Assembly (NCBI RefSeq): GCF_900176565.1
Contig: NZ_FXEH01000005.1
Location: 769,384-833,383, forward strand
Direction: 5' to 3'
DNA: 64,000 nucleotides
Origin: Thalassobacillus devorans
GTDB lineage: Bacteria > Bacillota > Bacilli > Bacillales > Halobacillaceae
The notes below the pieces were generated by a model. That model had not been told where the DNA came from. It saw nothing but the letters and a program-made list of their open reading frames with translations, and made no database searches. Of the stretch, positions 13,127 through 17,606 are shown in pieces. Every line of letters starts with the position of its first letter. Within the stretch, counting starts at the first letter, position 1. The translations under genes were made by a program, and so were the position numbers.

Positions 13127-14797
13127 TTACATCCGTTCTGGTGCGGATACGCCGATTAGTTCCAATGCATTAGATAGCGTTGTGCGGACGGCCTTCATTA
13201 GACCAACACGGGCTTTGGTGCGTTCTGGCTGCTCTTGATCCAATACTTTTGCAGCATTGTAGAAGCTGTGCAGGTTAGAAGCCAGGTCGAATACATACTG
13301 CGTCACCCGATGAGGCGTGCGTTTTTCGGCTGCATCGGCTACTACTTGTGGAAATTCACCAAGCCGTTTCAGCAAATCTTCTTCTTTTTCAGAATCAAGC
13401 AACGTGGCATCGAAGTTCTTATCGAACGTGACACCCTTTTCTTCTGCCTGGCGAAGCATCGAGCAAATGCGCGCATGGGCATACTGGACATAATAGACCG
13501 GGTTTTCGTTCGATTCGGAACGTGCCAGATCCATATCGAAGTCCAGGTGAGAGTCTGCCGAACGCATCGAGAAGAAATAGCGCATGGCATCGATGCCCAC
13601 TTCCTCCATCAATTCGCGAAGCGTGACAGCTTTCCCCGTACGCTTACTCATCTTCACTTTTTCACCGTCCTGGAACAGGTTGACCATCTGGATAATCGCT
13701 ACTTCCAATGTATCTTTTTTGTAACCAAGTGCCTGGATAGCCGCTTTCATACGCGGGATATATCCATGGTGGTCTGCTCCCCAGATATTGATCAGCGTAT
13801 TGAAGCCACGATCCATCTTATTTTTGTGGTAAGCGATATCAGGTGTCAGATACGTGTAGCTCCCATCCTGTTTGATCAAGACACGGTCTTTGTCATCACC
13901 AAATTCCGTAGTCTTGAACCAGGTTGCGCCATCCTGCTCATATGTGTAGCCCTGATCTTCCAGGACTTTCAACGCTTCATCAATTTTCCCATCCTCGTAT
14001 AGAGAGGTTTCAGAAAACCACTCATCAAAAGGGACACGGAAATCTTCCAGGTCAACTTTGATTTTATCGAGCTCAAACTTCAAACCGTACTCCCGGAAGT
14101 AAGTGAGGCGTTCCTGTTCCGGTTTATCTGCCCACTCGGAACCATGTTCTTCTGCAAGCTTTTTACCTAGTTCAATGATATCCTTCCCATGGTACCCATC
14201 TTCCGGCATATCCCACTCCTTACCAAGCGCCTGCATATAACGTGCTTCGACGGAATAAGCCAGGTTATTGATCTGGTTTCCGGCATCATTGATATAGTAT
14301 TCACGGGAAACGTCATATCCTGCCTTTGCCAAAATATTGGAAAGGGAATCACCAACTGCAGCACCGCGCGCGTGTCCCAGATGAAGAGTGCCTGTCGGGT
14401 TAGCTGAAACGAATTCGACCTGGATTTTTTCGCCTTTTCCAGTATCGCTTTCTCCATAAGCATCTCCTGCTTCCAAAATGGTGGATACAAGGTTAGTCAA
14501 ATACTGATTGTCCATATAGAAATTGATGAAACCGGGACCGGCAATCTCAATTTTATCGATGGAGGCTTTTGTATTATCAAAATTCGCAACGATATCCTCC
14601 GCGATCATGCGCGGAGCTTTTTTGGCGATTCGTGCCAGCTGCATCGCCATGTTAGTCGCATAATCACCGTGCGCTTTATCTTTCGGCTGCTCGAGTACGA
14701 CTTCCGGCATTTCCTCCTCGGTCGCCAACCCTGCCTTTAATACCGCCTGCTGGATCTCCTGTTTCAGTTTCGTTTCCGTCTGCTCCACAATATTCAT
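13127..14797 (-). CDS. argS: Arginyl-tRNA synthetase
   Basis: 556 residues, complete class I synthetase. The HIGH-equivalent [15 protein letters not shown] lies near residue 135 and the KMSK-equivalent [14 protein letters not shown] near residue 375. The N-terminal arginyl additional domain and C-terminal anticodon-binding DALR domain (ending [12 protein letters not shown]) are present. It charges tRNA-Arg. The start overlaps the ywiB stop by 4 nt (ATGA arrangement), so the two are translationally coupled, as in B. subtilis. No T-box leader was seen because translation is coupled to ywiB. Confidence 0.97.
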
Positions 14798-15237
14798 TGC
14801 GCTGTTTCCTCCTTACGATAGCTCAAAGTTAATCGATGACGCTGAGTGATTTCCTGATTTAAAGTCAACTGGTAGCTGATGAACAGCCGTCCTTTTGCTC
14901 CCTTGGATAAGGATTGGTGTTCAATCTGATCCGTAAACGTGTTCATATGAAAAATACCATACGTATGATGGTAGTTGTTCTCTGTTGTATGTTTTTTTCG
15001 GAAAATCTGATGCATTTTGACAGCACCAGAGCGTTTGATGCTGACTTTTCCAGGCTGGATGGTAATCATGGTATCGATTGGTCCGCCTTCGTCGGGATGT
15101 TCGGTGAACTTGAGGACTTGTGTGTTTCCCCGTTCGTATAGTCCTCCCTGTTCTTCCATGACGACTGTTTCTTTTCGGCCGCTGTCCCTGATTTCTGTCA
15201 CAAGGCGAATCGACACTGGTGTCTCGGCAGCACTCAT
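14794..15237 (-). CDS. ywiB: DUF1934 family protein YwiB
   Basis: 147 residues, matching the usual ~140-150 of DUF1934 (a calycin-like beta-barrel family). Recognisable features are [11 protein letters not shown] at the N-terminus and the central [22 protein letters not shown] stretch. The biochemical role is unknown. It lies directly upstream of argS, overlapping by 4 nt, as in B. subtilis. AAGGAGAGATAGT precedes ATG 15237. The region upstream, normally adjacent to speB, is here interrupted by a repeat element and an IS110 insertion. Confidence 0.88.
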
Positions 15238-15337
15238 ACTATCTCTCCTTACGTTCCTCTTAACCTATCCATTATAAAAACTAAAAAAGAAAAGCGCAAG
15301 CCCTCCATAAATAACTCTTTGGTTGTTGATTATTTAT

Positions 15338-15500
15338 ACCCGAAAAGTCGAAGACTTGATTTCAAGTTATCAAGGGTTCTTTGCCATAACAGTGTAAGGG
15401 CTGGCTGGGAAACTACTCGCTTTCCTGCGGGGGAACTGGCAAGCCTCCTCGGTCGTTACACTCCCTGTGGGGTCTTGCCTAGTCCCTTCTCCCGCGGGAG
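15338..15500 (+). repeat. Composite palindromic element C1, left part (core R1, 5' portion)
   Basis: Contains the outer-end segment GTCGAAGACTTGATTTCAAG (15348 onward) and most of a long imperfect palindrome beginning GGGAAAC at 15407 (arms such as GGCAAG/CTTGCC inside). The core stops abruptly after CCCGCGGGAG at 15500 where the IS110 element starts, and its missing 3' arm resumes at 17237. The intact homologue at 57919-58027, read in reverse, shows how the halves join. The rest of the ywiB-transposase gap (15238-15337) shows nothing further. Confidence 0.85.
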
Positions 15501-15604
15501 ATTCCTGTGGGATTCAGTAGAGGGGTCTTGAATGAAAAAAAGCCCTCCGTTATGATGCATTTGTACAACCAAATACAAACAAACATCAAAAGGAGGACTT
15601 CCCC

Positions 15605-16882
15605 TTGAATTCTAATAGGAATGCTAAAATAAATCAAATCTCTGGAGAATCCTTAGTGATCGGTATCGATATCGCTAAAAAAACCCATTATGCATGCGCG
15701 GTCGATGATCGCGGACGGGAACTCCAACGTCCCGTTGGATTTACTCAGAGTAGGGCTGGCTTCGAAGGGTTTCACAAACAGATAAAGGAATGGCTGCACC
15801 AACATGGAAAAAGTGAGGTTATCATCGGGTTTGAACCCACAGGTCATTACTGGATGAACCTGGCTGCTTTCCTCCTTGAAGAGGACATCTCTTTTGTGGT
15901 CGTCAATCCTGCGCATGTGAAACAATCGAAAGAGTTTGATGATAATCTTCAAACAAAAAACGATAAAAAGGACGCAAGATTGATTGCGAAACTCATGATT
16001 GGTGGTAATTTCAGCTATCCCAGAATTCCAGAAGGTATAGAAGCTGAACTGAAAAACGGCTCCATAACGCGGTGGAAACTGAAAGACAAACAAGCGATGT
16101 TGAAAAACCAAATGACGGGGTTGATCGACCAGTACTTTCCTGAATTTAAAACCGTCATCAAAGGGTTTGGTCAATTGGCTTGCGCCATTTTGAAATACAC
16201 GCCTTTTCCTGAGGATCTACTAAACCAGGAGGTAGAGGAACTGGCACTGATGTATAAAGAAAAAGCGGGTATATCCTCTCCTTCGAAAAGTAAGATTCGA
16301 GAGATGAAACGGGCAGCTGAAAACTCCATTGGTATTTCGACAGGCAAAGAGGTGGCACGCTTTGAAATCGCCGCACTTGTCGATCAGTTTCTTCTAATCG
16401 AACGTCAACTGACAGAACTCAATCATCACTTAGAAGATTTAGTCACCCAGCTGGATGAATACGAATACCTGATATCGATTCCCGGCATTGGAAAGCATAC
16501 GATCATTGATTTGATTGCGGAAACGGGTTCACTTAAGCAGTACACACATTCACGCCAACTCATTAAATTAGCGGGATTAACACTGCGCGAGAACTCTTCC
16601 GGTTACCATAAAGGTCAAAAGAAAATTTCCAAACGGGGACGAAAACGGCTCAGAAACCTTCTTTTTCGCGCCATATTGCCTTTGATTCAAAATAATCGTG
16701 CGTTTAAAGAATTGTACCAGTACTACATTACTCGTCCCGTTAATCCTTTGAAAAAGAAGGAAGCAATGGTCGTGTTGTGCGGAAAACTGTTAAAGATCTT
16801 TTTTGGTTTATCGAACCGCCAGGTTCACTTCAATGAGGACCGAATGAAACAGGACCTCCACTGTCTTCAACAGGCAGCGTAA
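15605..16882 (+). CDS. IS110-family DEDD transposase/recombinase
   Basis: 425 residues from TTG 15605 (AAGGAGG at 15591-15597). The N-terminal RuvC-like DEDD domain shows GIDIAKKTHYACAVD (~residue 21), GFEPTGHYW (~80) and NDKKDARLIAKLM (~120). A coiled middle region leads to the C-terminal Transposase_20 domain, with a helix-hairpin-helix-like ISIPGIGKHTIIDLIAETGS (~295) and the serine-containing RENSSGYHKGQKKISKRGRK (~335) expected to hold the catalytic Ser. IS110 recombinases act with an element-encoded RNA that pairs with donor and target DNA. The frame is intact, so the element may be active. Confidence 0.93.
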   Translation: MNSNRNAKINQISGESLVIGIDIAKKTHYACAVDDRGRELQRPVGFTQSRAGFEGFHKQIKEWLHQHGKSEVIIGFEPTGHYWMNLAAFLLEEDISFVVVNPAHVKQSKEFDDNLQTKNDKKDARLIAKLMIGGNFSYPRIPEGIEAELKNGSITRWKLKDKQAMLKNQMTGLIDQYFPEFKTVIKGFGQLACAILKYTPFPEDLLNQEVEELALMYKEKAGISSPSKSKIREMKRAAENSIGISTGKEVARFEIAALVDQFLLIERQLTELNHHLEDLVTQLDEYEYLISIPGIGKHTIIDLIAETGSLKQYTHSRQLIKLAGLTLRENSSGYHKGQKKISKRGRKRLRNLLFRAILPLIQNNRAFKELYQYYITRPVNPLKKKEAMVVLCGKLLKIFFGLSNRQVHFNEDRMKQDLHCLQQAA

Positions 16883-16892
16883 CCTATATTTC

Positions 16893-17050
16893 TGACCCAT
16901 AAGATGACACGGAGAAGCTGGCGCAAAGCGAGACAACAGACTACGAGTCTATGCGGGAGAATAAAGCCGGCCTCTGCCTTATGATGAGACCAAACGAAGG
17001 AATGTAGGCGCACGACGCCAAGAGACATGGGAGGGTAAGTCCTCATAAGA
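16893..17050 (+). ncRNA. Candidate bridge RNA / seekRNA of the IS110 element
   Basis: Two consecutive stem-internal-loop structures lie directly after the transposase. Target-type loop 16898-16983: outer pairs CATAAG/CTTATG and GCTGGC/GCCGGC, apical hairpin AGACT-ACG-AGTCT (16938-16950). The 5' loop strand carries GCGAGAC (16928-16934), complementary to target GTCTCGC at 17241-17247. The 3' strand carries GCGGGAG (16953-16959), identical to target 15494-15500. Donor-type loop 16984-17046: outer pairs ATGAG/CTCAT, apical GGCG-CACGA-CGCC. Its 5' strand carries AGGAAT (16998-17003), complementary to the element's left end ATTCCT. Its 3' strand carries GGAGGG (17030-17035), identical to the right end at 17234-17239. 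Exact RNA ends are unknown. Pairings were traced by eye. Confidence 0.8.
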
Positions 17051-17236
17051 AAGCAGGGATCCAAGGTGCATCGATTCATACAAAAAAGATCGCCTAATAC
17101 AGTTAGGAAACGCAACGCGTCCCTTCGATTTCCTTAATATTGAAGAAAAGGAATAACTTGTTTAACAAATGAAGTATAAAAAAAATTTAAAAGTGTTAAA
17201 ACGATCTTTAACCCTTGGTGTATCAACATTTCCGGA

Positions 17237-17310
17237 GGGAGTCTCGCAGTTTCCCAACCACCCCATTCGAAGAATGGGAGAAACGAAACCTGCCATACAT
17301 GCAACTGTCT
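17237..17310 (+). repeat. Composite element C1, resumed 3' arm of core R1
   Basis: GGGAGTCTCGCAGTTTCCC (17237-17255) is the arm missing from the core broken at 15500. The following CCACCCCATTCGAAG and CTGTCTTC segments match the linker next to the intact core at 57919-58027 in reverse. Between it and core R3 lies about 150 bp of linker with no credible gene. Confidence 0.82.
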
Positions 17311-17359
17311 TCCGCGAACTCTGGTTACAAGCACGATTTTATAAGGAGCTCACCCTCTG

Positions 17360-17545
17360 GTTGAAGGACTACATATCCGTGTTTCCGTTTCTCCCATAAA
17401 CACAAGGAGGTCAGGGAAATTGCGAGACTCCGATGGGAGGATAGTACATGGTGAGATCCCGCAAGGCGAAGCCTGAGGAAGCTCACCGTACGCCCATGGA
17501 AAGCGAGTGATTTCCCGGACCTTCACACCGTTACTACCGTAACGG
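17360..17545 (-). repeat. Composite element C1, second core (R3, inverted)
   Basis: Palindromic core 17414-17516, nearly identical in reverse to the core at 28542-28645, including flanks such as GTTACTACCGTAACGG. It is inverted relative to R1, so with 15338-15500 and 17237-17310 it makes one composite unit of about 0.48 kb once the IS110 is removed. The outer end is truncated or diverged after 17545. Confidence 0.82.
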
Positions 17546-17575
17546 AAACAACACATCAAGAAAGGGAGGTTATGT

Positions 17576-17606
17576 AAAAAACTGCCGCATGTGGGGGGGC
17601 GGCAGT
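17576..17606 (-). terminator. speB terminator
   Basis: ACTGCCGC and GCGGCAGT pair; a run of six T follows on the minus strand, 10 nt beyond the speB stop. Confidence 0.8.

Follow-up and report, generated by a model that had tools for sequence, protein, structure and literature searches.

The principle of a bridge RNA (seekRNA), which picks the insertion site of an insertion sequence (IS) of the IS110 family through its guides, is already known. In IS621, as described in the accessible text of PMC11208160 and PMC11208158, the RNA lies upstream of the recombinase gene, the cores read CT and left guides stand ahead of right guides. The seekRNAs of the IS1111 group carry the top-strand match first, which is the reverse of the order in ISEc21, and the transposases of this group measure 330–350 aa and are related over their full length (accessible text of PMC11187229). 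Sub-terminal inverted repeats of IS1111 elements are given as 7–17 bp (PMC11208160, in part) and as usually 11–13 bp (PMC11187229, in part). IS110-family elements with a downstream non-coding region (NCR) form the "green group" of PMC11187229, the accessible text of which notes this kind with a 3′ RNA without dissecting it. Here, we describe a locus of the IS110 type in a stretch of 64,000 nucleotides from Thalassobacillus devorans (assembly GCF_900176565.1, contig NZ_FXEH01000005.1, positions 769,384–833,383), which is referred to as the window and whose positions are used below; all features lie on its forward (+) strand unless indicated otherwise. At 15501–17241 the window contains an IS110-type element with a structured RNA region 3′ of its recombinase gene (tnp). 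Judged from sequence comparison, it is very probable that this is a bridge RNA (seekRNA) element which was inserted here by guide match, with the RNA picking the site.

The borders of the element (15501–17241, 1741 bp) were obtained from five near-identical copies found in the host genome and from comparison with a congener (G398), whose orthologous locus L290 lacks the element and exhibits the uninterrupted CTCCCGCGGGAGTCTCGCAG at the junction. L290 aligns to the window over 14701–15500 at 96.5% and from 17231 onward at 92.2%. As in the IS110 family in general, this empty-site comparison revealed insertion without target duplication beyond the core. The target consists of a left half GCGGGAG (15494–15500), which includes the AG core (15499–15500), and a right half TCTCGC (17242–17247; GTCTCGC if G 17241 is added), and the natural target of the element can be written as GCGGGAGTCTCGC. 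The left element end ATTCCTG (15501–15507; CATTCCTG in most relatives) and the GAGGGAG of the right element end GGAGGGAG (17234–17241) are kept in homologues. Because GGGAG is present at both junctions, the placement of the element is ambiguous, with a leftward shift of up to 5 nt being possible. The ends 15501/17236 of a preliminary description of this DNA mix two placements: the left end could be retained, but the right end is 17241, or 17236 provided that the entire placement is moved left by the 5 nt of the repeat. The reading of GGGAG as a 5-bp target duplication was considered and rejected, as relatives with GCAG or AAAG targets share only AG; these relatives retain GAGGGAG at their right end. 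Of 155 left ends, 154 are preceded by AG on the tnp strand (CT on the opposite strand) and the remaining one by N; these ends were found without requiring AG, whereas earlier flank and guide patterns had demanded it.

Downstream of tnp, a conserved structured region resembling a bridge RNA or seekRNA (16898–17062) could be delineated by pair counts in an alignment of 44 of 47 divergent RNAs chosen for this purpose (L075, L240 and L128 were omitted); its borders are those of conservation and not transcript ends. Loop unit 1 (16917–16971), which is predicted to bind the target, is closed by a stem GCTGGC/GCCGGC enclosing the guide strands. In this helix 1, 85.6% of the cells are paired and six of six pairs show change on both sides. 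Its 5′ strand contains the guide GCGAGAC (16928–16934), the complement of the right target half on the tnp strand, and its 3′ strand the guide GCGGGAG (16953–16959), which is identical to the left target half on the tnp strand. Apical hairpin 1 (AGACT-ACG-AGTCT, AGACTACGAGTCT, 16938–16950) is conserved in its pairs GAC/GTC only, and these are swapped for GGG/CCC in 14–16 of the 44 rows. Thus, the hairpin AGACT/AGTCT of the preliminary description holds for its three middle pairs, while the outermost and the innermost one are broken in 37 of the 44 rows. Loop unit 2 (16973–17057), the predicted donor-binding loop, contains helices 3–5 with 97.7–99.2% of cells paired and an apical hairpin 2 (GGCG-CACGA-CGCC, GGCGCACGACGCC, 17007–17019), two pairs of which show exchanges of both partners, in 14 and 13 of the 44 rows, respectively. 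Its predicted donor guides are AGGAAT (16998–17003), complementary to the left element end, and GGAGGG (17030–17035), identical to the right one. GGAAT in the RNA is accompanied by ATTCC in the left end in 33 of 37 relatives, GAGGG occurs in the RNA and in the right end in 36 of 37, and both donor matches are found together in 32 of 37. By direct reading of 15201–17600, all four loop strings (GCGAGAC, GCGGGAG, AGGAAT and GGAGGG) lie where the preliminary description had located them.

Over the entire two-unit structure, 88.6% of 1268 cells are standard pairs, compared to 74.5 ± 0.6% in shuffled alignments (0 of 500 as high), and compensatory change on both sides is found in 23 of 29 pairs. The covariation score amounts to 0.467 versus 0.203 after shuffling, and RNAalifold without any guidance yielded 21 pairs, 13 of them with double changes. 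If the structure is slid by one to three columns, the fraction of paired cells falls to 32–41%, a control which is flattering insofar as the structure was drawn partly from the tested sequences. The number of further pair types (48) was not beyond that in shuffled alignments (44.6; 46 of 500 as high). The 3′ region could be aligned across recombinases that are about 40–76% identical to that of the window, and of 397 genomes from the order, 37 contain the RNA motif AGACATGGGAGGGTNNGTC, which gave no match in the control. A search of Rfam yielded no match for 15200–17600 and none for the empty-site locus.

For the comparison of guides and targets, homologues were drawn from the 397 genomes, 150 of which gave a recombinase match at E ≤ 1e-20, from a contig scan (80 of 92 loci kept) and from 80 additional regions of genomes with several copies. 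The resulting 167 recombinase places were reduced to 166 by removal of one duplicate and to 154 by the filters applied (a minimum of 230 nt downstream and of 39.5% identity, and a flank found). After four loci without an anchor (L102, L268, L259, L258) had been dropped, 150 remained, corresponding to 148 distinct insertions and 79 RNA types, with 143 usable left and 135 usable right flanks. The right end was set by the last GAGGGAG in range; use of the first instead alters five rows (L059, L094, L121, L198, L250) and leaves the result unchanged. Two family-wide pattern searches for more copies found them in only 1 of 18 and 5 of 43 genomes, one of them new (G420).

In this set the guides follow the targets. 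The identity between left flank and 3′ guide strand was 6.89 of 8 versus 5.25 ± 0.11 in permutations (143 insertions, 77 RNA types), and the complementarity between right flank and 5′ guide strand was 5.34 of 8 versus 4.19 ± 0.11 (135 insertions, 71 types; 5.36 versus 4.18 under the corrected right-end rule). Neither score was reached in any of 20,000 permutations. Over 7 nt, the left guide and its flank are identical in 99 of the 143 cases, differ at one position in 37 and at two positions in 7. Agreement at positions -7, -6, -5, -4 and -3 was 0.82, 0.89, 0.94, 0.99 and 1.00, respectively, compared to 0.29, 0.33, 0.60, 0.94 and 0.60 after permutation, and vanishes at position -8 directly beside the guide (0.23 versus 0.24). 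For the right guide, agreement is clear at +1 (0.75 versus 0.47) and +2 (0.66 versus 0.28) and amounts to 0.53 versus 0.30 at +6. To account for guides and targets that related elements may have inherited together, swaps were also restricted to four target classes, whereupon the observed 4.63 of 5 still stood against 3.95 ± 0.06 (0 of 5000 as high); for each class alone, its own value was reached in at most 13 of 5000 permutations. Within the AAGGAG class, guide and target at position -6 read A/A in 58 cases, T/T in 16, A/T in 5 and T/A in one, with three others. Guide and target also change together over 7 nt in L096 (GCGGCAG), L097 (GAAGCAG), L103 (GGTGCAG) and L095 (GGAGCAG). Plasmid loci, which were fetched after the pattern was known, included the left junction in 8 of 14 cases and both junctions in 7. 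Four of these eight left junctions match exactly over 7 nt (L303, L311, L313, L314) and four with one mismatch (L305, L306, L307, L312); the pair GTGGCAG/GTGGCAG of L313 was absent from the earlier set.

The copies of the element itself fit this picture. The left flanks of the five copies in the host read GCGGGAG in four cases and GCAGGAG in one, and the right flanks TCTCGC in four and TCTCAC in one. In another congener (G397), in which the RNA region is 93% identical over the last 360 nt with unchanged guides, all 11 end matches (five left, six right) were located at CGCGGGAG or TCTC[GA], although two of the right ends share identical flanks and may not be independent. Among 127,960 junction positions on both strands of the window, the right 7-nt guide matched 100, the left 126 and both together only one, which is accounted for by the uninterrupted GCGGGAGTCTCGCAG present at locus L026 within the window. 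With regard to the preliminary description, which had proposed that the RNA directed this very insertion, that claim is well supported by sequence evidence, namely copies at guide-fitting sites, a fold conserved in 44 homologues and guides that follow targets far beyond permutation; copies at sites unrelated to the guides, which would have contradicted it, were looked for, and none was found among the five copies in the host and the 11 end matches of G397.

Several observations weigh against the proposal that the RNA guided the insertion. The folding energy of the window RNA as a single sequence is ordinary (z -0.99 versus shuffles), and the evidence for the structure lies in covariation. The donor guides hardly vary among the relatives; the donor-loop matches named in the preliminary description are present, with strings that are nearly invariant within the family. 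Right-guide agreement is clear at +1 and +2 only and patchy between and beyond, and the core position (G) is constant in the flanks. Individual loci fit less well: the right match of L086 is poor, and mismatches number two on the left in L265 and one in L098. Moreover, the loops were parsed with a regular expression that is known to err in some cases; L115 and L117 were misread by the guide pattern, which lowers the agreement.

It could be argued that the recombinase protein itself recognises the target and that the RNA matches are a side effect of common descent. Related recombinases do tend to share target classes, for which the recombinase tree requires no fewer than 9 changes, compared to 28.4 after shuffling. 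This tree is a quick one covering 66 of the 79 types (interrupted or short frames were omitted), with support from the Shimodaira–Hasegawa-like approximate likelihood ratio test (SH-aLRT) only, and contains long branches that were flagged. Guide strings served to define its target classes; in the GAGGAG class, L252 with its apparently Shine-Dalgarno-like sites is grouped together with elements that target repeats. Recombinase and element ends remain recognisable across the target-class changes. Yet relatives with similar targets, if permuted only inside their own class, still keep their guide-target agreement, and the close relatives L095, L096, L097 and L103 differ in guide and target alike, which makes recognition by the protein very improbable.

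No better founded is the view that the guides are a consequence of insertion, i.e., that the RNA copies its flank afterwards, for example by imprecise excision, and then serves another role. Agreement by itself cannot separate cause from effect, but multi-copy elements with a single RNA (e.g., G261, G290, G071) occupy numerous loci where the flanks have little in common apart from the guided junction bases, and position -8, which adjoins the guide, is without agreement. Both views appear to have only a slight chance of being correct. The chance is close to nil that the 3′ region is merely an untranslated regulatory RNA or a region for recognition of the ends at the DNA level: the sub-terminal DNA of IS ends is often bound by transposase, but compensatory changes fit an RNA fold and the variable loop bases track the target.

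If the RNA indeed guided the insertion, GCGAGAC of loop 1 would pair with the right target half on the tnp strand and GCGGGAG with the left half on the opposite strand, the two guides meeting over the 2-nt AG core (CT opposite). Loop 2 would read the abutted ends of a circular form, AGGAAT pairing with the left end and GGAGGG with the right end, and the recombinase, a relative of those of IS621 and ISCro4, would join target and donor at the core. This scheme presupposes that the RNA is transcribed and processed, that it is bound by the recombinase, that base pairing is the cause of site choice, and that a circle intermediate and a donor function of loop 2 exist. As the guides spell GCGGGAG-TCTCGC, insertion would take place at the site observed, and such sites would be amply available, with GCGGGAGTCTC being intact 28 times in the host genome, inside a repeat resembling repetitive extragenic palindromic (REP) sequences. 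The reversed pattern occurs 0 and 1 times on the two strands.

All 28 of these intact sites are located inside copies of a longer, interspersed host repeat of about 490 bp. At the present locus, its left part holding the target covers 15340–15500 and its right part, at whose end the REP-like segment recurs in inverted orientation, 17242–17583; these parts were assigned no strand, and their borders, obtained by alignment to 28 empty-site loci, are approximate. The repeat consists of two inverted REP-like segments flanking a spacer, which we take to be an arrangement similar to that of a bacterial interspersed mosaic element (BIME). Its matches number 54 to 57 each in the host and three congeners, while one was found in a fourth (neighbouring gene included).

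The recombinase gene (15605–16882, 425 aa) begins with TTG after AAAGGAGG and was identified by domain profiles and alignment to ISCro4. The protein matches PF01548 (DEDD, E 1.9e-34), PF02371 (C-terminal, E 5.4e-22) and, with 230.3 bits against a cut-off of 140 (E 3.5e-68), NCBIfam NF033542 "IS110 family RNA-guided transposase". Its catalytic residues D, E, D, D and S align with those of ISCro4 at GIDIAKK, FEPTGHYW, KNDKKDAR and SSG, their roles being taken from the accessible text of PMC11208158. ISCro4 (E 1.2e-16) and IS621 (E 2.5e-15) were the only solved relatives found by sequence, while the match to the IS5075 transposase was limited to residues 272–415 (E about 5e-6). The range 15605–16879 additionally exhibits a weak match to a model of the TIGR-Tas RNA-guided endonuclease (E 7.8e-05; 22.7 bits, with the cut-off at 100); Tas and IS110 proteins are probably linked. 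The left non-coding end of the element measures 104 bp and includes a promoter-like TTGAAT-17-TATGAT (15528–15556), which was found by a consensus scan only; such sites are no commoner in the region (3) than in shuffled sequence (2.7).

With regard to the family placement, an ungapped search in the outer 45 nt of each end did not find a sub-terminal inverted repeat, the best match being 7 of 11, with 300 shuffles giving 6 to 10 and mostly 7–8. The missing repeat and the transposase length of 425 aa imply that the element is not of the IS1111 type. Neither is it a standard IS110/IS621 element, as its structured RNA lies 3′ and not, as in IS621, upstream of the gene. When IS5075 and ISSep2 were used as the outgroup, the recombinase tree gave no usable placement between IS110 and IS1111, with end branches of 8.6 and 9.4 and the two not falling on one side; for this reason the question rests on length and missing repeats.

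In two loci of a further genome (L197 and L202, G270), the left end reads ATTCCCGT and the RNA GAGGGAATG, replacing ATTCCTGT and GAAGGAATG, which is possibly a co-change of donor guide and element end. L073 and L078 contain the same RNA change with the left end unchanged. Five loci on Priestia plasmids (L307–L310 and L316) contain a divergent RNA with the guide region GCAAACTAG; the sole left flank found among them, that of L307, reads AAACCAG and represents a further target class. Elements of the GCAG-guide class (L095, L101, L229, L231) are inserted in the middle of host palindromes of the type TTCTTATTCAACTAA-GGGGCAG-GTTAGTTGAATAAG.

Guides ending in (A/T)AGGAG, which resemble a Shine-Dalgarno (SD) sequence, account for 80 of the 148 insertions. 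Of the 74 with enough flank, 53 exhibit an ATG, GTG or TTG (ATG in 40) 5–14 nt downstream of the core that opens a frame of at least 60 codons, compared to only 2 of 54 insertions with other guides. A first count, which used looser guides (four additional ones) and the uncorrected right end, had given 57 of 81 (41 ATG) versus 4 of 54 for other guides (Fisher p = 5e-14), 52 of 270 AGGAG sites in flanking DNA (p = 4e-17) and 483 of 6680 random positions. Membership in the class depends on the guide string alone, with its border drawn after the flanks had been seen. Part of the excess over other AGGAG sites may reflect selection and not targeting, as insertions inside genes are selected against. 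Elements of this class (e.g., L107, L193, L222, L255, L303) tend to be located within SD sequences and co-directional with the downstream gene, and their right end puts GAGGGAG in the place of that gene's own signal. As the right end is identical in elements with other targets, no claim is made that it evolved as an SD replacement. In L303 and L304, both with the guide AAAGGAG, annotated genes start 9 and 12 nt past the right end, yet in L305 with the same guide the next annotated gene is 409 nt away. Literature searches, the coverage of which left out most subscription papers and supplements, yielded no report of IS110 elements in SD sequences. PMC8024623 was considered as a precedent for IS110 and AAGGAG and rejected, as its accessible text concerns other IS families and IS110 fills one table row.

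It appears fairly probable that the window element belongs to a wide IS110-type lineage of Bacillales with a 3′ bridge RNA in a mirrored frame, without IS1111 repeats and with often reprogrammed guides, including a recurrent SD program by which elements enter ribosome-binding sites co-directionally, separate the native SD from its gene and put their own right end GAGGGAG there instead. If true, this would be an RNA-guided element exploiting one of the most repeated short signals in bacterial genomes, and the SD-guided branch would illustrate a way for such an element to reach many gene-start sites. As far as seen, the SD guides and the mirrored frame are new, as are the extent of the reprogramming series and the occurrence of a 3′ RNA in an IS110-type lineage that lacks IS1111 repeats. 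The 79 RNA types and 148 insertions represent a computational series of naturally reprogrammed bridge RNAs for an IS110-type branch with 3′ RNAs, and offer a further recombinase lineage for programmable DNA insertion.

On the tnp strand, the guide order of the window element is IS1111-like and the core reads AG. On the opposite (CT) strand, the target reads GCGAGA-CT-CCCGC and the donor reads AGGAAT-CT-CCCTCC, with CT in both. In this frame GCGAGAC is the left guide and GCGGGAG the right guide, and in both loops the sequence of the left half recurs in the 5′ guide and the 3′ guide is the complement of the right half. In IS621, the left guide is the 5′ guide. The guide scheme on the CT strand is that of IS621, which suggests that the "reversed" guide order of elements with 3′ RNAs is the IS621 geometry viewed from the opposite strand; the chemistry would thus be shared with IS621, the transcription unit pointing in the opposite direction.

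Among the known systems, ISPpu9 resembles the window element in being an IS in repetitive extragenic palindromic sequences, with seven copies and small RNAs around tnp; unlike here, these RNAs are described as regulators of tnp and not as target guides (accessible text of PMC8450116). With the IS1111 seekRNA elements ISEc11, ISKpn4 and ISPa11, the window element shares the RNA in the 3′ NCR, the top-strand match 5′ of the bottom-strand match and, with the group as a whole, natural redirection through guide changes; it differs from the group by the sub-terminal inverted repeat that was not found here and by a recombinase of 425 aa versus 330–350 aa (PMC11187229, in part). Like IS621 and ISCro4, it combines a homologous DEDD and serine recombinase with predicted target and donor loops, in each of which two guides would meet at a core dinucleotide (PMC11208160 and PMC11208158, in part). 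Unlike in these two, whose chains measure 341 and 328 aa, its RNA is located 3′ and not 5′ of a gene for 425 aa, and core and guide order are mirrored on the tnp strand. The nearest named kind is probably the "green group" of PMC11187229, which, compared by its description in the accessible text alone, is likewise of the IS110 type with a 3′ NCR.

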